Source: Planctomycetota bacterium
Lineage (GTDB): Bacteria > Planctomycetota > UBA1135 > GCA-002686595
Assembly (NCBI GenBank): GCA_027623615.1
Contig: JAQBVH010000035.1
Span: forward strand, 1-11,695
Length of the DNA: 11,695 nucleotides
Reading direction: 5' to 3'
Below, one piece after another: positions 433 through 11,695 of the stretch (positions are counted from its first letter, which is position 1; each line of letters starts with the position of its first letter). A program made the translations under genes and the position numbers. The notes beneath the pieces are model-generated. The model searched no databases. It saw only the letters and a list, made by a program, of their open reading frames with translations, and was not told the origin of the DNA.

Positions 433-1331
433 AGCTCACTCCGATGAACCTCGGGCTGCTCGTGGCGGTGCTCGCCCTCGGTCTGGTCGAGCTCCTGTCC
501 GGCGGGGGCCGCGCCGCCGAGCGCGAGATCGAGAAGCTGTTCCCGCTCTTCACCTCCGATGCCGCGCAGCGCATCGAGGTCGCGGGCCCCGAGGGTACCC
601 TACGCCTGCACCGGACGGACGGCGCTTGGGTCTGCTCGGAGCGCTTCGATTATCCCGCGCGGGAGGACTTCACCCGCAAGATCCTGAACGCGATGGCTTC
701 CCTGACGACGATCGATCTCCTCTCGACCGACGCAGGCTCGCACAAGGACTACGGTCTCGACCAGAAAACGACGCGCGTTCGTGTGTGGGGTGAGGGCGAT
801 GACCTCCTGGTCGACCTTATCCAGGGCAAGGACGTGCCCGATGGCCTCGCTTGCTACGTGAAGCGTTTCGGCGGTGACGAGGTCTATCGCGCGCCAGTCC
901 TGACTCGGATTCCCTCGGCCCAGACCATCTGGCTCGAGTCGCGCTGGTTCCTGTTCGAGCCCGGCTTCGTGCGCAAGATCGAGGTGACCGGCGCGGACCT
1001 GCCCACCCCGGTGGTGATCGAGCGTGAGGTCGGTCGCTCCCGCTGGCACAAGGGCGACGACAACGTTGCCCTCGGTCGCGTGGACAGCTTCTTCGCGGCG
1101 CTGCAGGGCCTGCTGGTCGAGGACGTCGTCGCCGGCCGCGCGGACCCCGAGGCGCTGGGGGAGGTCGTTCTACGCGTCGAGTTGACCCTGGCGGACGACT
1201 CGGTCCTGGCCGCGGAATTCGGTGCCCCTGCGGACTCCGTCGTTCGCGCGCGCCGGGACCCGGGCGGCTTCGTGGTGGCGATTCCTGAAGGGCGCGTGAC
1301 CCTCATGGCCCAGCGTGCCCTCGAGTTCTGA
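429..1331 (+). CDS. DUF4340 domain-containing membrane-anchored protein
   Basis: This gene encodes a 300-residue protein starting at ATG 429, which overlaps the previous stop as ATGA. A GGAG at 416-419, nine bases upstream, is a plausible ribosome-binding site inside the previous gene. Reading further upstream in this frame gives only an Arg/Pro-rich shadow of the upstream gene, so the 429 start is preferred. The N-terminus has one hydrophobic segment (residues about 7-24, LGLLVAVLALGLVELL) acting as signal anchor, and the remainder should lie outside the cytoplasmic membrane. The body alternates short beta-type segments: a RIEVAGPEGTLRLHR strand pair, then LTTIDLLSTD, then a DYGLDQKTTRVRVWG stretch. 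That last pattern (gene product 'YGLD... rV.v') is characteristic of DUF4340. In other genomes DUF4340 genes follow gldG-like genes in the same ABC operon, as here. The molecular function is unknown. It ends six bases before the convergent pseudopilin-like ORF, with no obvious terminator between. Confidence 0.85.
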   Translation: MKLTPMNLGLLVAVLALGLVELLSGGGRAAEREIEKLFPLFTSDAAQRIEVAGPEGTLRLHRTDGAWVCSERFDYPAREDFTRKILNAMASLTTIDLLSTDAGSHKDYGLDQKTTRVRVWGEGDDLLVDLIQGKDVPDGLACYVKRFGGDEVYRAPVLTRIPSAQTIWLESRWFLFEPGFVRKIEVTGADLPTPVVIEREVGRSRWHKGDDNVALGRVDSFFAALQGLLVEDVVAGRADPEALGEVVLRVELTLADDSVLAAEFGAPADSVVRARRDPGGFVVAIPEGRVTLMAQRALEF

Positions 1332-1337
1332 TCGCGG

Positions 1338-1829
1338 CTACTTGTACGACGCGCCGCCGCCGGTGACGAAGGCGAACTCGTTCGCCCAATCACGCGAGGT
1401 GCAGGCGAAGGCACCCTGGAACTCGTCGATGGCGGACTGGGTCTCGAAGTTGCGGATGCCGAGCACGTAGTACGAGTCCGCACCCACGCAGCCGTAGGAG
1501 CCCTTGTTGTAGACGTAGTACCGGAAGTGGTACGTGCCGTCGCTGACAGGGTCCATGACGGGGGCCCTCAGGTAGCCCTCCTGGACGAGCACCGAGATGA
1601 AGTCTCCGTCGTGGGAGACGTCCCAGCCACCAAAGCTGGAGTTCGTGTTCGCGGCCGGGAACTGGCCCGTGTCGAGCTTGTACTGCTCGACGGCGGACTG
1701 GACCGTCTTCAGGTCCTGCATGCGGCGTGTGTCGCGGGCGCGCTCCCGATGGGGCCGCCTACGCCTCCTGCGGAGGCGTGCGTGTTGTTTGGCGCCACAC
1801 CTGACGGAGTGGCAGCCCGGAGCGAGCAT
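1338..1829 (-). CDS. GspG/type II secretion-like pseudopilin, N-terminally truncated (probable gene remnant)
   Basis: The C-terminal 130 residues look like a GspG-type pseudopilin. A RARDTRRMQDLKTVQSAVEQ helix is followed by YKLDTGQFP, then an Asn/Ser/Gly-rich loop, a GYLRAPVMDPVSDG segment and two cysteines (GCVG and FACTS) that could form a disulphide. In intact pseudopilins this helix continues N-terminally into the hydrophobic prepilin segment (G-FTLIE...), which the leader peptidase needs. No such segment exists in any minus-strand frame between 1742 and the kgd start at 1970. The ORF instead opens with an Arg-rich stretch (RLRRRRRRPHRER) crossing a hairpin. Pilin-like residues (RERARDTRR) extend upstream of the internal ATG at 1721, so that Met is not a natural pilin start. 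As it stands the product could not be processed or assembled. It is either a truncated duplicate or, less likely, a soluble pilin-like domain. The first codon (ATG at 1829) is uncertain; 1721 would give 127 residues. Confidence 0.6.
   Translation of the reverse strand: MLAPGCHSVRCGAKQHARLRRRRRRPHRERARDTRRMQDLKTVQSAVEQYKLDTGQFPAANTNSSFGGWDVSHDGDFISVLVQEGYLRAPVMDPVSDGTYHFRYYVYNKGSYGCVGADSYYVLGIRNFETQSAIDEFQGAFACTSRDWANEFAFVTGGGASYK
1761..1779. terminator. Perfect GC-rich hairpin, possible terminator
   Basis: ACGCCTCC at 1761-1768 is exactly repeated as GGAGGCGT at 1772-1779 with a three-base loop (TGC). On the plus strand it is followed by GCGTGTTGTTT, a short T-rich run, so it resembles an intrinsic terminator for plus-strand transcription arriving from the gldG/DUF4340 operon. 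It lies in the Arg-rich, non-pilin part of the minus-strand ORF, which supports the view that this stretch is not truly coding. It could also be a mobile or recombination-associated hairpin left at the pilin breakpoint. Confidence 0.45.
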
Positions 1830-1969
1830 CTGTGGCGCACGCTGTCTAGCCGGACCGTGGCCTGGCTTGGCCCGCCGACCTCTCGATCCGGATCTGCCGC
1901 TGGAGCGCGCTTCTGGCCGGGACGGTTACGCCCGCCCAGACCCATGGCGTATCCTCGCCTCGGAATCGT
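1780..1969. promoter_or_regulatory. Non-coding region upstream of kgd, holding the presumed promoter
   Basis: No convincing gene is seen here. A second inverted repeat is present: GCGCCACA at 1792-1799 and TGTGGCGC at 1831-1838, separated by 31 bases. A weak -10-like TATCCT occurs at 1950-1955, only 15 bases before the kgd ATG, which would give a very short leader. No clear -35 element or strong Shine-Dalgarno sequence accompanies it (only CGGAA at 1961-1965). The promoter must lie in this stretch or just upstream, because the preceding plus-strand gene ends 638 bases before kgd, but its exact position is not resolved. Confidence 0.3.
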
Positions 1970-4900
1970 ATGCCCATCGACTTCGAACGCGAGTACGGCG
2001 TCAACGCCGGGTACGTCCAGTCCATCTACGACACCTGGCGCGAGGACCCCAGCGCGGTTCCCCAGAGCTGGGGCCGGATCTTCGAGAGCGCCGGCGCCAC
2101 GCTCGCGACGGACACGTCGGAGCCGGCGTCGGAGGTCGAGGTCGAGGTCGAGGTCGACCCGACGCTCGAACCGCTGACCGGCCTGTCGGGCCGCATCGCC
2201 GCGAACATGGAGGCCAGCCTCGCGCTGCCCACGGCGACCTCGGTGCGCACCTTGCCCGCCAAGGTCCTGGCCGAGAACCGCGCGGTGATCAACGAGCACA
2301 TGGCCCTGCGCGCCCTGTGCAAGGCCAGCTACACGCACCTGATCGCCTTCGCCCTCGCGCGCGCGCTCGGGGAGCAGCCGCGGGTGCAGGCGTCGTACCT
2401 CGAGCAGGGTGAAAAGCCCTTCCGCCGGGTGCCCGACCAGGTCAACCTCGGCATCGCGATCGACGTGGCCACGTCGCGCGGGCGGACGTTGATGGTGCCC
2501 TCGATCAAGGACGCGGCTTCCCTCGACTTCCTCGGGTTCCACGCAGCCTTCGAGGACCTGGTCGCGCGCGGCCGCGACGGCAAGCTCAGCGCCGCCGACT
2601 TCAAGGGCACGAGCGTGACGCTCACCAACCCGGGCGGCTTCGGCACCACCCTGTCGGTGCCGCGCCTGATGGAGGGCCAGGGTCTGATCGTCGCGACCGG
2701 TGCGATCGGCGTGCCGCCCGAGGTCATGGGCATGTCTCCCGAGGCCCTGGCGCAGCTCGCGCTCGGTCCGGTGATGACCGCGACCTCGACCTACGACCAC
2801 CGGGTGATCCAGGGGGCCGAGTCGGGGCTCCTGCTCAAGCGCCTCGAGGAGCTGCTGCAGGGCGCGGACGGGTTCTACGACGAGGTCTTCGCCGCCCTGC
2901 GCATTCCCTGGACCCCGTTCCGGGCCGCGAGTGACCTGCGCCTGCCCTCGGGCCGTGACGAGGCCGAGGCGCAGACCCGGGTCTGGAGCCTGATCAACGC
3001 GTACCGCTCCCGCGGGCACTGTCTGGCCGACCTGAACCCGCTGGCCTACGAGCCGGCTCTCGAGGAGTCCCTCGACCCGGCCAGCTACGCGTTCACGATC
3101 TGGGACCTCGACCGCTCCTTCCTCTGCGGCGGGATGCAGGGACGGCAGCGCATGCGCTTGCGCGAAGTCCTGGCTGCGCTGCGGCGGGCCTACTGCCGGC
3201 GCTGGACGGTCGAGAGCAACCACCTGACGAACCGGGAGCGCAAGCACTGGCTGCGCGACCAGGTCGAGCGGCCCGAGAACGAGTACGCGTTCGACCAGGA
3301 GCACCGCATGCAGGTGCTGACCCTGCTGTCGCGCTCGGAGAACTTCGAGCGCTTCCTGCACACGCGCTACGTGGGCAACAAGCGCTTCTCCCTCGAGGGT
3401 GGCGAGGCGCTGATCCCGGCCCTGGCCGAGGTCATCGAGCACGCGGCCGAGCAAGGGGTCGAGCGCGTCGTCATCGGCATGGCTCACCGCGGGCGCCTCA
3501 ACGTGCTCGCGAACATCCTGCACAAGTCCTACGGACAGATCTTCCGTGAGTTCGAGGCGGTGCTGCTGCCCCTCTCGACCGAGGGCTCGGGCGACGTGAA
3601 GTACCACCTCGGCCAGCGCGGCGTGTACCGCACGCGCGCAGGCCAGGAGGTCGAGATCGAACTGTGCGCGAACCCCAGCCACCTCGAGGCGGTCGACCCG
3701 GTCGTGTGCGGGATGACCCGCGCCTACCAGGATCGCCTCGCGGACACTGATCGTCGCCGGGTACTCGCCGTGCAGGTGCACGGCGACGCCGCCTTCAGCG
3801 GCCAGGGCGTCGTTGCGGAGACCCTGGCCATGGGCGGCCTGCCCGGCTACACGAACGGCGGCACGGTGCACCTGGTCGTCAACAACCAGATCGGCTTCAC
3901 GGCCAGCCCGGACGAGACGCGCTTCACGCGCTACTGCACGGACATCGCCAAGGGGGTCGAGGCGCCGATCCTGCACGCGAACGGCGACTATCCCGAGTCC
4001 GTCCTGCGGGCATGCCGCCTGGCGGTGGACTATCAGCGACGCTTCGCGGGAGACACCGTGATCGACATCGTGTGCTACCGCCGCTGGGGTCACAACGAGG
4101 GCGACGAGCCGGCGTACACCCAGCCGCTCCTCTACCGGCGCATCGCGGCGCACCCGACCTCGCGCGAGCACTACACCCGACTGTTGCAACGCCGCGGAGT
4201 GCTGACGGAAGCCGAGGCCGTGGAGATCACCGAGTCGTTCGACGCCGAGCTGCGCGAGGCGCTCGAGGGCCAGCGCGCCGCGCCCGAGCTGGAGCTGTCG
4301 CCCGAGGAGGTCATGGACATGACCCTGGACGACCCCCTCGACTACCGGCAGGGCGACTCCCCGGAGACCGGCGTGGACGGGGAACGTCTGACCAGCCTGA
4401 TCGACGAGCTGAACACGGTGCCCGAGGGTCTGGTGGTCCACCCCAACCTCCTGCGCCAGCTGCGGCGCCGCGAGGACATGGTGCGCGGAGAGCGCGACGT
4501 GGACTGGGGCTGCGCGGAGGCCCTGGCCCTGGGCAGCGTGCTCCAGGATGGCACCCCGGTGCGCATCAGCGGCCAGGACTCGGGCCGCGGCACCTTCTCC
4601 CATCGGCACGCGGTCATCCACGACCAGGTGCACGAGGCCGTCGAGTACGTGCCCCTGGCGGACCTGGTGGGTGGCGCCTCCTTCGAGGTCCACAACTCCC
4701 TGCTCAGCGAGGAGGCGGTGGTCGGCTTCGAGTACGGCTACGCGGTGGTGCGCCCCGAGGCGCTGGTCGTCTGGGAGGCGCAGTTCGGCGACTTCGTGAA
4801 CGGCGCGCAGATCCCCCTCGACCAGTTCGTCACGGCGGGCGAGGCCAAGTGGCGCCAGCTCGCTGGCCTGGTGCTGCTCCTGCCGCACGGCTACGACGGT

Positions 4901-5515
4901 CAGGGTCCCGAGCACTCGAGCGCGCGTCCGGAGCGCTTCCTGTCGGCGTGCAACGCCGGGAACCTCGTCGTCGCGAACTGCACGACGGCTGCGCAGTACT
5001 TCCACCTGCTGCGCCGCCAGGCGGCCACGGAGCAGAAGCGACCGCTGGTGGTGTTCACCCCCAAGTCCCTCTTGCGCGACAAGCGCGCTGCGAGCCCGGT
5101 CGAGGCGCTCGCCGGCGGGCGCTTCCTCGAGCTGATCACGGACGGGGTCGCCGAGCGCGCGGAGGTCAAGCGCGTCCTGCTCTGCACGGGCAAGGTCTAC
5201 TACGAACTCGAGGCCCACCGGGTCGCGAGCGGTGTGACCGACACGGCCATCCTGCGCCTCGAACAGCTCTACCCGTTCCCCAAGGACACCCTGGTGACCG
5301 AGCTCGAGCGCTACGGCGACGCGGCCACCGTCTGGGTCCAGGAGGAGCCGCGCAACATGGGCGCCTGGTCCTTCGTGCTGCAGCGCTTCCTCGACCTGAA
5401 CCGCCGCATCGAGTACGCCGGCCGGCCCGAGACCTCGAGCCCGGCGACGGGTTCGTACAAGCGCCACGCCGCCGAGCAGGACCTGGTGGTCCAGCGCGCG
5501 TTCGGCAACGTGTGA
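1970..5515 (+). CDS. kgd: Multifunctional 2-oxoglutarate dehydrogenase/decarboxylase (fused E2 acyltransferase-E1, Kgd type)
   Basis: This gene encodes an 1181-residue TCA-cycle enzyme that decarboxylates 2-oxoglutarate with thiamine diphosphate (ThDP). Known Kgd enzymes support oxidative succinyl transfer with an external lipoylated E2/E3, and can also release succinic semialdehyde or act as a carboligase. Domains in order: the E1 N-terminal helix (residues 5-41, with YVQSIYDTWREDPSAV); a short acidic linker with (Glu-Val)x4 at 55-62; an E2 catalytic domain (about 75-305) with the active-site motif DHRVIQGAESG (His277); then the E1 core. E1 landmarks are HRGRLNVL (His506), ANPSHLEAVDP (His571), the ThDP/metal-binding HGDAAF (Asp606) to NNQIGF (638-643), and GQDSGRGTF (868 on). 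The C-terminal domain has LEQLYPFP and WVQEEPRNMGAW. As in mycobacterial Kgd, no lipoyl domain is present, and the length is close to that enzyme (about 1230). The 1970 ATG starts a proper E1 N-terminus; no strong RBS is visible. It is monocistronic here. Confidence 0.95.
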   Translation: MPIDFEREYGVNAGYVQSIYDTWREDPSAVPQSWGRIFESAGATLATDTSEPASEVEVEVEVDPTLEPLTGLSGRIAANMEASLALPTATSVRTLPAKVLAENRAVINEHMALRALCKASYTHLIAFALARALGEQPRVQASYLEQGEKPFRRVPDQVNLGIAIDVATSRGRTLMVPSIKDAASLDFLGFHAAFEDLVARGRDGKLSAADFKGTSVTLTNPGGFGTTLSVPRLMEGQGLIVATGAIGVPPEVMGMSPEALAQLALGPVMTATSTYDHRVIQGAESGLLLKRLEELLQGADGFYDEVFAALRIPWTPFRAASDLRLPSGRDEAEAQTRVWSLINAYRSRGHCLADLNPLAYEPALEESLDPASYAFTIWDLDRSFLCGGMQGRQRMRLREVLAALRRAYCRRWTVESNHLTNRERKHWLRDQVERPENEYAFDQEHRMQVLTLLSRSENFERFLHTRYVGNKRFSLEGGEALIPALAEVIEHAAEQGVERVVIGMAHRGRLNVLANILHKSYGQIFREFEAVLLPLSTEGSGDVKYHLGQRGVYRTRAGQEVEIELCANPSHLEAVDPVVCGMTRAYQDRLADTDRRRVLAVQVHGDAAFSGQGVVAETLAMGGLPGYTNGGTVHLVVNNQIGFTASPDETRFTRYCTDIAKGVEAPILHANGDYPESVLRACRLAVDYQRRFAGDTVIDIVCYRRWGHNEGDEPAYTQPLLYRRIAAHPTSREHYTRLLQRRGVLTEAEAVEITESFDAELREALEGQRAAPELELSPEEVMDMTLDDPLDYRQGDSPETGVDGERLTSLIDELNTVPEGLVVHPNLLRQLRRREDMVRGERDVDWGCAEALALGSVLQDGTPVRISGQDSGRGTFSHRHAVIHDQVHEAVEYVPLADLVGGASFEVHNSLLSEEAVVGFEYGYAVVRPEALVVWEAQFGDFVNGAQIPLDQFVTAGEAKWRQLAGLVLLLPHGYDGQGPEHSSARPERFLSACNAGNLVVANCTTAAQYFHLLRRQAATEQKRPLVVFTPKSLLRDKRAASPVEALAGGRFLELITDGVAERAEVKRVLLCTGKVYYELEAHRVASGVTDTAILRLEQLYPFPKDTLVTELERYGDAATVWVQEEPRNMGAWSFVLQRFLDLNRRIEYAGRPETSSPATGSYKRHAAEQDLVVQRAFGNV
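2132..2155 (+). repeat. Hexanucleotide tandem repeat (GAGGTC)x4 in the kgd linker
   Basis: Four perfect copies of GAGGTC encode alternating Glu-Val in the linker between the N-terminal E1 helix and the E2 domain. The run keeps the frame, so copy-number change would only lengthen or shorten a flexible acidic linker. Confidence 0.8.
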
Positions 5516-7296: not shown

Positions 7297-10200
7297 TCAG
7301 GTCGCGGCCAGCTCCTCCTTCGCGGCGGTCAGAAGACCGAGCGTGCCGTTGAGGAACGTCTCGCGCTCGACCTCACCCTTGGCGAGCCGCGCCAGCACCA
7401 GCTTCTGGGCGGCGTAGTCCTCGTTGACCAGGCCGGCGCGGCTCTGGAGCATGCGCCAGGCGCGGCGCCGCTCGACGCAAAAGAGGACCATCTGGCGGCT
7501 GAGCAGGAGGCGCCGGACCTTGCCGTCGTCGGTCTCGGCCTCGATCGAGACCCCGAAGTCGGGCACGTACGCGTGGTGGTCCTCGTCGAGGAAGCGGCGG
7601 TGGACCACGTCGTCCTGGGTGATGCGTACCAGCATGTCGAGGAGGTCGATGGACTCTGCGTCCGGCTTGGCCGGCTGCATGTGTCGCCGGAAGCGCGCCT
7701 CGGTCGCGGCCCAGTGGGCGATCGTGTAGGAGTAGTTACCGCGGCCTGCCTTGGACTTGACCTGGGCCCAGTCGCGCTTGAGGTCCGGGTTGCCCTTGAG
7801 GGACAAGGCCTCGCCGTAGCTCTCGCCCTTCTGGGGGTCGAAGACGAACTCGGGCATGCAGCGCGAGTCGCGCACACGCGCGGCCTGGCGGTTGGCCATG
7901 TCGTCCGGCACGCCGTGCTCGGGCTGGCAGGTCGTGAAGGCCTGCAGGAAGGCCGTTCCGCGGTAGGCCAGGCCCTCGAGCACCGCCTTGTAGAAGTTGC
8001 CCGCGCTGGCGAGCGACACCTGGCCCACATAGGGCGAGCCGTGCCCCGCCGCGAAGATCTCGGCCAGGCTCTTCTTCTCGGTGTACTTGCCCTGGCTCGC
8101 GCTGCCGAACTGGTTCATGTCCCCGCCGCCGAGCATCGGCGTCGAGTCCGAGTTCTGGCCGCCGGTGTTGGAGTACACCTGGGTGTCGAGCATCACCAGC
8201 TTCACGTTCGGCCGGTTTTGCAGGATCACCTTGCTGACGTTCTGGAAGCCGATGTCGCCCATGCCGCCGTCGCCGCCGACGCACCAGGCCTTCGGCAACT
8301 CGGCGATCTCCTGGTCGGTCATGAGCGCGTCGGTGAAGTGCTCGATCTCGAACGACCAGCGCGCGTCGAGGTCGTCCTCGCCGCCGCGGAGGACCAGCGC
8401 GGACAGGCGCTCGGGCAGGACCGAGCGCCGCGCGTGGTCCATCACGAAGCTCTCGCCGAACATCCACGTGATGGTCGCGCCGTCCTGGAAGAGGGAGTTC
8501 ATCCAGGGGTAGGGGTGCGGGTTCGACGGCGGGGTCGAGCCGTAGACCGTGTTGCAGCCGGTGTGGGCGCCCATGGCCATGACCGCCATCCCGTTCTCGA
8601 GCATGCCGTCCACGGCGCGCAGGTCGCGGTGGTTGAAGGCGTCCTGGCGCAGGACGGCGCGCAGGGCGCCGAGCAACTCCTCGTCCGAGGGCAGGCCGAG
8701 GGTGGCGAGGCGGTGCGCGCTGTCCGCGTCGTCCTCGCCGCCGAGGCCCATCACGATGTGCGCGACGGCGCGCCGAAAGCGATCGGCGGAGTCGGGGTGA
8801 CGCTCGGACCAGCGCGCGAGGTGGTCCACGCCGCGCTCGTCGAGGGCGCGCGCGGTGGCCTCCATGCGCTCGGCCTTGGCGTGGTAGAGCGGGCGCATGA
8901 GCGCCTCGGTCAGGCTCGCGATGCCGCGCAGGATGCTCTTCTCGCCGCAGCCCGCGCACGCCCCGTCGCCCGAGACGAGCGCCTCGTAGTTGCTGCGCAC
9001 CATCAGGTGGTTCTTGAGCGTCACCGCGTGGGAGCCGAGCGGATCGAACGGGTCGAACTTGCCGAGGAAGTCCGCGGTCGTGTCGGGGAGCAGGTCGAGG
9101 AAGTTGGTGCCGGAAACGTGGTCCGAGTTGAGCTCCTCGGTCTCCGACGCCATGACGAGCGCGTCCTTGTCGCCGCACTCCGCGACGCACTCGCCGCAGC
9201 CCTTGCACAGGTCCGAAACCATGATCGCGAAGAGTCCGCCCGAGCCAGGCTCCTTCTTCTCGCGCGCCATGAAGGCCTGCGGGACCTTGGTGTAGGCGAA
9301 GGGGATGCGCTCGAAGACCTCGAGGTACTTGGCCCGGGTCTCGGCGTCGAGGCCGCTGACGGCGCGCACCTCCTGTGCCACGATCTGCTTGAACGGCAGG
9401 GTCTGCTTGGCCTTGGTCGCGGCGACCATGCGCGCGCGCGCGCGCTCCTCGACCGCGGGCAGCTCGGCGGCGAGCAGCTCACGCCCGGGCGCGCCGGGCG
9501 CCAGGAAGTTGAGCGCGGTCGCCAGGATGCTGGCGATCGGCTGGGCCGTGTTCGGCAAGGCCGTGTCCGGGCAGGCGGTGATGCACTCCATGCACTGGGT
9601 GCAGTTCTCCGCGATCCAGAGCGGCGTCTCCCGCCGCGCGACGTACTTGCTCGCGGTGCGGCCGGTCGCGGCGGCCATGACCCCGACCGAGGACAGGGTC
9701 GACGCCGGCTGGTCGTAGCCGAGGCCTGCCCGGAACTCGTCGTCGAAGGTGCTGATGCGCGCGACCGGGGGGCGCTCGGGTTGCTCGTGGCAGGTCGTGT
9801 CGGCGTCACAGGTCAGGCAGGCCAGCGGCGCGGCGCGCATCGACGAGCGGTCGGGCGCTGCCATGTCCCCGACGGGCAGGCGCCGGACGCGCGCGAAGCC
9901 CTCGGTCATCACCGTCATGTTCGAGGCGACGACCGCGTCGCCGAAGCGGCCGAACTTCTTCTCGTACTGAGCCTCGACCACATCGTGGAAGCGCGCCTCG
10001 TCGATGCCGTACTCGGCGAGGAAGGGGGAGACCTTGAAGAAGGCGCCGAGGAACGCGTTGCCCTGCATCCGTAGCTGCAGGTCCTCCCGGTCGGTCGCCT
10101 GCTTGGCGATGTCGAAGCCGGGCAGCAGGTAGACCTGGATGTGCTTGCGCTCGATCTCGCGCCGCTGCGGGAGCGGGATGCGTTGCCACGCGACGTCGGG

Positions 10201-11695
10201 CTCCTCCTCGGACTCCCAGACGAAGATGCCGCCCTCACGCATGCCCGCGATCGGGTCGTACTGGGTGAACGCGCGCGGGTCGCAGCACAGCACCACGTCG
10301 ACATGGCGCAGGTCGCAGTTGACGCGGATGCGCTCGGGCGCGACGACGAGGAAGTAGGAGGTGGGCGCGCCCTTCTTCTCGGAGCCGTACTTCGGGTTGG
10401 CGCTGACGTGCAGGATCTCCTTGGGGCGCCCAAGCTCGTCGACCTCGCCGGCCTTGGTCATCAGGTCGTCGCCGAACGCGCCGATGACCTCGCCGAGGTT
10501 CTTGCCGGTAGTGATCATGCCCCACCCGCCGATCGAGTGGAAGCGCACCGCGATCGAGCCCTCGGGCAGGAGCGACGGGGTCTCCTCGCTCTGCACCTCG
10601 TAGTCGTGGTCGATGCCGAGCGTGAAGTAGCTCGTGCCCTCGGAGGCCTTGCGGCCGTCCTTGCGCGTCGCGCTGCCGGTGGCGAACTCGTACGCGCCGA
10701 GGACACCCTCGGGGCGGAAGTCGCGCGAGCCGAGCCCATAGGAGCCGCTGATGATGCGCGGCACGTCGCCCGCTGCGAGCGCCGGCAGGGGCTCGCCCGC
10801 GCTGGTCAAGCTGCCTTCGACGGCCTTGCCCAGGGCGGCGCGCACGTCGCGCGTGAGCGGGTTGTCGCCGGAGAGCGCCTCGTCCGTGCGCTCGAGGATG
10901 ATCAGGGTCTGCTTCCCGCGCAGCGCCTCGACGAGCGCGGCCTCGGGGAACGGGCGCAGCAGGTTGAGGTGCAGCGACCCGACCCTGGCACCGCGCGTCT
11001 CGCGCAGGTGATCGACGGCGGCCTCGATGTTCTCGGCGGCGCAGCCCAGGGAGAGGAACACGACCTCGGCGTCCTCGCAGCGGTACTGGCTGAGGAAGCC
11101 GTAGTAGCGCCCGGTCAGCTGGCCGAACTCCTCGTAGGCGTCGGCGAGAAAACCCATGATCGGCTCGGCGAAGTTGTCGCGTCGCGCGATCACGCCGTTC
11201 ATGTAGTGCTCCTGGTTCTGGACCGGGCCGAGGAGCAGCGGGTTGCGCAGGTCGATCATCGCCGGCACGCGCGGCCGGGTCGGGCCGAACAGGCGCCGCT
11301 GGGCCTCGTTGGGGCAGTCGATGATGTCGTCGGGGGCGCCGAGGAACTCGCGCAGGAGGTCAGCCTCGTGCTTGAAGAAGGTGCGCTCGAGGTGCGAGGT
11401 CAGGAAGCCGTCCTGGGTGTTGATGCCCGGCGTCAGGGCCAGCTCGTTGACCTTGCGCAAGATCAGCGCCTGGTCGGCCGCCTGCTGTGCGTCCTTGGCG
11501 AACAGGATCGTCCAGCCGGTGTCGAGGGCGGCGTAGATGTCGTCGTGTCCGCAGTGCACGTTGAGCGCGTGCTTGGTCAGCGCGCGCGCGGCGACCTCGA
11601 GCACCATCGTCGAGCACTTGCCCGGCGCGTGGTAGTACTGCTCGATCCCGTAGACGATGCCCTGCCCGGAGGTGAAGTTGACCGTCCGCTTGCCT
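7297..11695 (-). CDS. Very large pyruvate:ferredoxin oxidoreductase-like 2-oxoacid:acceptor oxidoreductase (5' end outside window)
   Basis: The frame is open from the window edge; 1465 C-terminal residues are visible, ending at TGA 7299-7297 (numbering from the first full codon, 11694-11692). All fused PFOR domains occur in order. The alpha/PYR domain has VNFTSGQG and EVAARALTKHAL (about 1-200), and domain II follows (about 205-300). The gamma domain begins at HSIGGWGM (386-393). A two-cluster ferredoxin-like region has CTQCMECITACP (Cys698, 701, 704, 708) and CKGCGECVAECG (Cys830, 833, 836, 840). The ThDP-binding beta domain has CAGC (913, 916), TGCNTVYG (Cys1047), GGDGGMGD (Asp1142) to YSNTGGQ (1174-1180) and TTCQPEHG (Cys1256). 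It would convert a 2-oxoacid and CoA to acyl-CoA, CO2 and reduced ferredoxin or flavodoxin in the cytoplasm. Ordinary PFOR is about 1200 residues; this protein, with its missing start, is probably over 1500. Extra length sits between the ferredoxin motifs, between Cys916 and Cys1047, and at the C-terminus. Pyruvate is the default substrate but is not proven. Confidence 0.93.
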   Translation of the reverse strand, partial: GKRTVNFTSGQGIVYGIEQYYHAPGKCSTMVLEVAARALTKHALNVHCGHDDIYAALDTGWTILFAKDAQQAADQALILRKVNELALTPGINTQDGFLTSHLERTFFKHEADLLREFLGAPDDIIDCPNEAQRRLFGPTRPRVPAMIDLRNPLLLGPVQNQEHYMNGVIARRDNFAEPIMGFLADAYEEFGQLTGRYYGFLSQYRCEDAEVVFLSLGCAAENIEAAVDHLRETRGARVGSLHLNLLRPFPEAALVEALRGKQTLIILERTDEALSGDNPLTRDVRAALGKAVEGSLTSAGEPLPALAAGDVPRIISGSYGLGSRDFRPEGVLGAYEFATGSATRKDGRKASEGTSYFTLGIDHDYEVQSEETPSLLPEGSIAVRFHSIGGWGMITTGKNLGEVIGAFGDDLMTKAGEVDELGRPKEILHVSANPKYGSEKKGAPTSYFLVVAPERIRVNCDLRHVDVVLCCDPRAFTQYDPIAGMREGGIFVWESEEEPDVAWQRIPLPQRREIERKHIQVYLLPGFDIAKQATDREDLQLRMQGNAFLGAFFKVSPFLAEYGIDEARFHDVVEAQYEKKFGRFGDAVVASNMTVMTEGFARVRRLPVGDMAAPDRSSMRAAPLACLTCDADTTCHEQPERPPVARISTFDDEFRAGLGYDQPASTLSSVGVMAAATGRTASKYVARRETPLWIAENCTQCMECITACPDTALPNTAQPIASILATALNFLAPGAPGRELLAAELPAVEERARARMVAATKAKQTLPFKQIVAQEVRAVSGLDAETRAKYLEVFERIPFAYTKVPQAFMAREKKEPGSGGLFAIMVSDLCKGCGECVAECGDKDALVMASETEELNSDHVSGTNFLDLLPDTTADFLGKFDPFDPLGSHAVTLKNHLMVRSNYEALVSGDGACAGCGEKSILRGIASLTEALMRPLYHAKAERMEATARALDERGVDHLARWSERHPDSADRFRRAVAHIVMGLGGEDDADSAHRLATLGLPSDEELLGALRAVLRQDAFNHRDLRAVDGMLENGMAVMAMGAHTGCNTVYGSTPPSNPHPYPWMNSLFQDGATITWMFGESFVMDHARRSVLPERLSALVLRGGEDDLDARWSFEIEHFTDALMTDQEIAELPKAWCVGGDGGMGDIGFQNVSKVILQNRPNVKLVMLDTQVYSNTGGQNSDSTPMLGGGDMNQFGSASQGKYTEKKSLAEIFAAGHGSPYVGQVSLASAGNFYKAVLEGLAYRGTAFLQAFTTCQPEHGVPDDMANRQAARVRDSRCMPEFVFDPQKGESYGEALSLKGNPDLKRDWAQVKSKAGRGNYSYTIAHWAATEARFRRHMQPAKPDAESIDLLDMLVRITQDDVVHRRFLDEDHHAYVPDFGVSIEAETDDGKVRRLLLSRQMVLFCVERRRAWRMLQSRAGLVNEDYAAQKLVLARLAKGEVERETFLNGTLGLLTAAKEELAAT
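9430..9445. repeat. (GC)8 dinucleotide run inside the PFOR-like gene
   Basis: Sixteen uninterrupted alternating G and C bases encode an Arg-Ala-Arg-Ala-Arg stretch in the segment inserted between the two ferredoxin-type cysteine motifs. Alternating GC is prone to Z-DNA formation and slippage, but in a genome this GC-rich it may simply reflect codon choice for an Arg/Ala helix. Confidence 0.6.

Follow-up and report, generated by a model that had tools for sequence, protein, structure and literature searches.

A block between the proximal-cluster cysteines marks a branch of giant single-chain PFOR-like proteins

The window, that is, the whole stretch of 11,695 nucleotides analysed here (contig C23 of G000, a draft planctomycete genome 72% complete and divided into 847 contigs), carries a gene for a giant PFOR-like protein in which a block of about 105 residues lies between the CxxC pair and the third cysteine of the proximal [4Fe-4S] cluster. 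Judged by comparison with its homologues, the block is the marker of a branch of PFORs of ~1550 residues from soil and marine bacteria, and not an oddity of this genome. As to its role, we tentatively favour, with a probability of roughly 45%, that of a packing module, an accessory subdomain that would shape the acceptor side of the single-chain enzyme. The features of the gene are collected in Table 1.

Table 1. Features of the giant PFOR-like gene and its product (positions in the window; residues numbered in the product)
Feature	Position	Strand	Evidence
Giant PFOR-like gene	7297..11694	-	POR_N, PFOR_II, POR, Fer4, TPP_enzyme_C (Pfam)
First ferredoxin-domain cluster motif, residues 698-708	9571..9603	-	Pfam, alignment
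Second enlargement, residues 722-799, between the ferredoxin cluster motifs	9298..9531	-	Alignment comparison
Second ferredoxin-domain cluster motif, residues 830-840	9175..9207	-	Alignment
CAGC, Cys913/Cys916, proximal [4Fe-4S] ligands 1 and 2	8947..8958	-	phmmer, alignment
Insert proper, residues ~931-1036, between the CxxC and the third proximal-cluster Cys	8587..8904	-	Comparison with ordinary, split, A and B forms
Cys1047, third proximal-cluster ligand	8554..8556	-	phmmer against 1b0p, alignment
GDGGMGDIG thiamine diphosphate motif	8248..8274	-	Alignment
YSNTGGQ, matching the Asn996 region of D. africanus PFOR	8155..8175	-	phmmer, alignment; residue role from PMC5020499
Cys1256 (TTCQPEHG), fourth proximal-cluster ligand	7927..7929	-	Cys in all four aligned groups
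Third enlargement, residues ~1346-1398, C-terminal tail	7501..7659	-	Missing in ordinary and split forms

The frame ends in a stop at position 7297 and stays open as far as the contig end at 11694, so that the N-terminus of the protein is cut; 1465 residues are kept. Its residue 1 aligns with residue 116 of a congeneric copy, the stop-to-stop frame of which has 1581 residues. The POR_N, PFOR_II, POR and ThDP-binding C-terminal domains scored above their curated cut-offs, placing the protein in the 2-oxoacid:acceptor oxidoreductase superfamily. With the equivalog model for single-chain PFORs (TIGR02176) the window copy obtained 326 bits, under the 911-bit cut-off, and so did a full-length relative (L122, 353 bits); none of the 25 NCBIfam families among the matches listed reached its cut-off with the giant PFOR. 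The genes next to it on the side preserved in the contig encode a NUDIX protein and a 2-oxoglutarate dehydrogenase. A fused 2-oxoglutarate decarboxylase/dehydrogenase (window positions 1970-5515, plus strand; NF008907, 1536 bits) lies near the PFOR in this apparent planctomycete; fused enzymes of the NF008907 kind are typical of actinobacteria. Contig C335 of the same genome (L001) carries an apparent two-subunit 2-oxoacid:ferredoxin oxidoreductase, with fused gamma-alpha and the start of beta.

Positions 8554-8958 correspond exactly to the codons from Cys913 to Cys1047. In phmmer alignments the CAGC of the window protein matched that of 6cin, and its TGC (residues 1045-1047) fell on positions 837-839 of chain A of 1b0p, the last of which is presumably the published D. 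africanus residue Cys840. The third cluster cysteine thus lies at 1047, where the original prediction had placed it, and not elsewhere. In an alignment of 27 sequences (10 of clade A, seven of clade B, five of the split two-subunit form and five ordinary PFORs; clades A and B of giant PFORs are names defined in the present analysis), all 12 cluster cysteines were kept in all 27 rows of the four groups, eight of them being those of the ferredoxin domain. The claim that every ligand is preserved, Cys1256 included, therefore held. A further cysteine, Cys626, is found in the linker before the ferredoxin domain (window 9787-9828, residues 623-636), often in a CxxC; it was kept in all 10 clade-A rows of this alignment and was absent from the B, split and ordinary rows.

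The equivalents of Arg114 and Asn996, named among the residues around the pyruvate site in PMC5020499, are present in the window protein (in ARAL and YSNTGGQ; phmmer, alignment) and point to pyruvate as the substrate. YPITPS, with Thr31, was seen in the consensus of the full-length relatives only, the window copy being cut. The chemistry looks like that of an ordinary pyruvate-type PFOR, probably with three [4Fe-4S] clusters and with ThDP lodged where domains I and VI meet.

The separation of Cys916 from Cys1047 is 131 positions in the window PFOR, as against 25 in all 30 ordinary-PFOR loci (L083-L112) and 30 in the seven split two-subunit loci (L113-L117, L119, L120), the closest two-subunit relatives; an eighth split candidate, L121, is a broken PFOR from which no spacing was obtained. 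The same spacing was 128, 130 or 131 in 121 of 121 proteins (P0001-P0121, the listed matches, query and own duplicate included); at the genome loci (the best 80 of 475 relatives) it ranged from 128 to 135 in all 80. The insertion of 'about 105 residues' originally described, with its spacing of 131, is thereby borne out as a net gain of 101-106 residues, and the ordinary PFORs of ~1200 residues lack it. By its spacing within 128-135 and a block that matches profile A2, the window PFOR belongs to clade A, its full length of ~1550 residues being that expected from its relatives. There is practically no chance that the block is an intein, a mobile insertion or an assembly artefact: no support for this was found, and the comparison refutes it, the block being in frame and conserved in the 80 loci and 121 listed proteins. 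A search also detected 112 short proteins resembling the block; the 15 inspected all appeared to be truncated or frameshifted parts of this PFOR.

Within the block, mean identity between the window protein and 44 other clade-A representatives was 51%, as compared with 77% (residues 913-930) and 86% (1035-1090) in the flanks. Its ends are nearly invariant (TEAYMRP..H.KADR and RQDAFNH..LQA.DG), and R934, R943, G985, D991, R995 and A1019 were invariant in 45 of 45 clade-A representatives. Length varied among the 27 aligned blocks in one loop near residue 1000, and one sequence had a 3-residue gap near 964. For three pairs of sequences, in which dS was close to 1 or higher, dN/dS was 0.17, 0.57 and 0.38 in the block and 0.17, 0.27 and 0.19 over the entire protein; the block values were the highest among the stretches measured. 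These ratios indicate that the block is under purifying selection, though it is the fastest-evolving stretch measured. A tolerated ornament, that is, a surface expansion kept by drift with no specific role, would agree with this faster evolution relative to the flanks and with the differences in insert length and sequence between clades A and B, but hardly with six invariant residues or with retention of the block in the clade-A members examined, and we consider it improbable.

The block had also been described as mostly helical, a point that fared less well. Mean helix propensity was 1.10-1.15 in the five insert segments tested, which agrees weakly with it. Amphipathic periodicity was significant for the native helix before the insert only (p 0.009), marginal in two insert segments (p 0.077 and 0.069) and absent from the other three (p 0.25-0.43). 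The insert gave no match in Pfam at E <= 0.01, and a single insert sequence gave none among PDB sequences at E <= 10; an insert profile obtained six weak matches among PDB sequences, all to designed or engineered proteins (best E 0.043), and thus no credible relative.

Of 8000 candidates scored in the homologue search, 4415 proteins passed at E <= 0.001, and the 120 homologues listed were all 1469-1682 residues long. The 80 insert-bearing loci (best 80 of 475) carried six phylum-level labels: Planctomycetota, Acidobacteria, Verrucomicrobia, Actinomycetota or Acidimicrobiia, Armatimonadetes, and Deltaproteobacteria. In the phylum of the window, the insert profile matched in 21 of 392 genomes. 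Among 121 genomes of the class, clade A was present in 14 (two of them, G037 and G095, counted from pieces only), clade B in 10, the split form in eight and an ordinary PFOR over the cut-off in 30; G026, with broken PFOR matches only, was placed in none of the four groups. More than one PFOR type occurred in one class genome only (G079), an overlap that all 20000 shuffles exceeded, and clade A and an ordinary PFOR were found together in one genome of the phylum versus 7.1 expected (p 0.003), kinship being uncorrected in both comparisons. Two cases stand against a strict exclusion of ordinary PFORs by clade A. In L040, from an Opitutaceae MAG, an ordinary PFOR (857-4501; spacing 25; TIGR02176, 1740 bits) lies directly upstream of the giant one. 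G116 has an ordinary PFOR together with two clade-A-like pieces (G116:C123:15634-16056; 81% and 57% identity), the first with an internal TGA; these pieces, possibly a decayed copy, were left out of the clade-A count.

The closest known systems differ from the window PFOR in recognizable ways. Single-chain PFORs (TIGR02176; D. africanus 1b0p, Moorella 6cin) share its domain order, the 12 cysteines, the ThDP motif and the Arg114 and Asn996 equivalents, but the ordinary PFORs of the class are only 24-33% identical to it and lack three enlargements, the 105-residue block included. The split PFORs of the same class show 36-39% identity over the alpha part and have TGCNTVY and CKGCGEC motifs in common with it; they are encoded by two genes (alpha frames of 664-864 residues, beta of about 530-620), with spacing 30 and without the block. 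Some split alpha subunits end in CBS domains (L113 by Pfam, PF00571; L116 and L120 by eye), possibly a nucleotide sensor. The archaeal 2-oxoacid:ferredoxin oxidoreductase of S. tokodaii shares a CxGC loop near the ferredoxin site and a cluster in the domain VI equivalent, but, according to PMC5020499, has no intramolecular ferredoxin domain. The members of clade B (~1690 residues), sister to clade A, are likewise giant single-chain PFORs with an insert at the same site and are 34-37% identical to the window PFOR.

The block is accompanied by other enlargements. In the second one, all 78 residues are absent in ordinary PFORs, and the split form lacks residues 724-772 (49 residues); the C-terminus of clade A is likewise longer than that of ordinary PFORs, and there are shorter additions elsewhere. 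Clade B fills the enlargement columns of clade A (30% occupancy threshold). Their co-occurrence is the reason why we regard the block as belonging to a wider remodelling of the protein. A tree was made from 1060 columns present in all groups, with 26 of the 45 clade-A representatives, nine B, seven split and 16 of 28 ordinary sequences; all B and split sequences came from one class, a narrow sampling. UFBoot support was 97 for A and 100 for each of B, A+B and A+B+split, the split form lying outside A+B; the ordinary group was not recovered as a clade, perhaps through the rooting. That the insert defines a clade, for which an alignment of homologues had been proposed as a check, is supported both by the 80 fetched loci and by this monophyly of the insert-bearing forms. 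A single gain before A and B separated would be the simplest history, because both outside groups are without the block. It rests on position and tree: the A and B inserts agree in site and approximate size, but hhalign did not demonstrate homology between them (probability 3-6% over the first 25-26 columns, with one B subgroup at 0.4%), and A and B may alternatively have gained them independently at a single hot spot.

Clade B also differs from clade A in its surroundings. Downstream of the clade B gene lies one whose product has RnfC_N and Complex1_51K domains (Pfam at two loci; neighbour cluster at nine). Upstream lies one with an FeS and a Fer4 domain (Pfam at two loci; neighbour cluster at seven), a pair that we take to be the mark of RnfB. 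RnfC_N matches above 85 bits adjoin the B gene in all 10 B genomes of the class (at loci including L123, L124, L126, L133 and L137); outside these genomes, G054 is the only one of the class with such a match. None of the 14 clade-A class genomes had an RnfC_N match above 64 bits or a clade-A gene beside RnfC, four weaker matches lying on other contigs, and G000, at its 72% completeness, had no RnfC_N match. Beside the window PFOR there is neither RnfC nor an RnfB-like gene on the side away from the contig end, the one side visible. The arrangement in clade B suggests direct electron transfer from pyruvate to Rnf. The main rival to the packing module is acceptor docking, in which the block itself would contact a dedicated redox partner (Rnf in B, some ferredoxin or flavodoxin in A) and set the choice of acceptor. 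The constant presence of RnfC beside the clade B gene, and of an RnfB-like gene before it at the loci inspected, is in keeping with it, and A and B inserts that are not recognizably alike might be partner-specific surfaces; but no conserved operon or partner gene was found beside clade A (among 100 loci of A and B combined, many of them short in flanking sequence, the widest neighbour cluster took in 11), which leaves this reading possible but doubtful.

A different role, shielding of the proximal cluster from oxygen, had been put forward in the original prediction. In ordinary PFORs a helix starts at the CxGC and a strand returns to the TGC; in the alignment, the block enters at this helix-strand turn, its first residue lying 15 after Cys916. 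The root of the block would then be ~20-25 Å from the proximal cluster (about 22 Å if helical). Because of this distance of about 15 residues from Cys916, direct cover of the cluster is unlikely, unless the block folds back. According to PMC5020499, D. africanus PFOR owes its unusual oxygen stability to an extra C-terminal domain that covers the proximal cluster, an element different from the block. COX1 (E <= 1e-40) was detected in 299 of 392 genomes of the phylum. It was found in 20 of the 21 insert-A genomes, the exception being the incomplete genome of the window, whose congener G056 has COX1, versus 78 of 133 ordinary-PFOR genomes. With this cut-off, which was chosen after the data were seen, p was 0.0009 for A-only against ordinary-only genomes (0.026 with any COX1 match; kinship uncorrected), but 0.035 for A against all other genomes of the phylum (0.15 with any match). 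Within the class there was no contrast: COX1 was present in 119 of 121 genomes, including all 30 with ordinary PFORs and all eight with the insert-less split form. Given that nearly all class genomes have COX1, its link with clade A is one of lineage, not of the block. Further, E1 alpha of the PDH/BCDH type was matched at E <= 1e-64 in 13 of the 14 clade-A class genomes, and aceE is present in the remaining one, so the giant PFOR need not work in air. The root position and the co-occurrence of split forms with COX1 both speak against the shield, which we regard as unlikely. Clade A thus occurs in respiring bacteria, and the block itself is not what permits respiration.

That the giant PFOR is the sole pyruvate enzyme of aerobes was also considered and was rejected, as E1 alpha matches were present in 121 of 121 class genomes; none was over its family cut-off, so that they do not distinguish PDH from related dehydrogenases. 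The aceE family was over cut-off in 10 of the 121.

The favoured reading, the packing module, is as follows. The block is an addition relative to ordinary and split PFORs that leaves the 12 cysteines in place, as the add-on subdomain originally envisaged would be. It would have been fixed before the two giant single-chain clades split, within the sampling used, and would spring from the helix-strand turn on the cluster-distal end of domain VI. From there it may pack against the two other enlargements, the one separating the ferredoxin clusters and the one in the C-terminal tail, and the resulting cap could brace the fused chain or the dimer and shape the surface on which the electron acceptor docks. 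The joint occurrence of the three enlargements, the constant spacing, the monophyly of A+B, the low dN/dS and the strong conservation of both block ends argue for such a module, as does the acceptor context, which differs between B and A. The faster evolution of the block than of its flanks, the mostly non-significant helical periodicity and the scant likeness between A and B inserts argue against it. In a broader and rather speculative extension, less probable than acceptor docking, A and B together would form a separate PFOR branch adapted to respiring bacteria; a three-part cap with the block as its largest piece would replace free-ferredoxin chemistry and dock a dedicated acceptor (Rnf in B, some other carrier in A), the enzyme running beside a PDH-type complex and terminal oxidases.

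Neither the insert nor a PFOR beside rnfC was described in the titles and abstract openings of the literature searched, although a full-text account is possible. PFOR is commonly regarded as an enzyme of anaerobes; contrary to this image, most of the genomes over which the giant branch extends have terminal oxidases. The block provides a clean clade-defining marker and a removable part, such that its effects on stability, oxygen response and acceptor choice are directly testable. In the sister clade, the link with Rnf hints that electrons from pyruvate may pass directly to an ion pump in the membrane.
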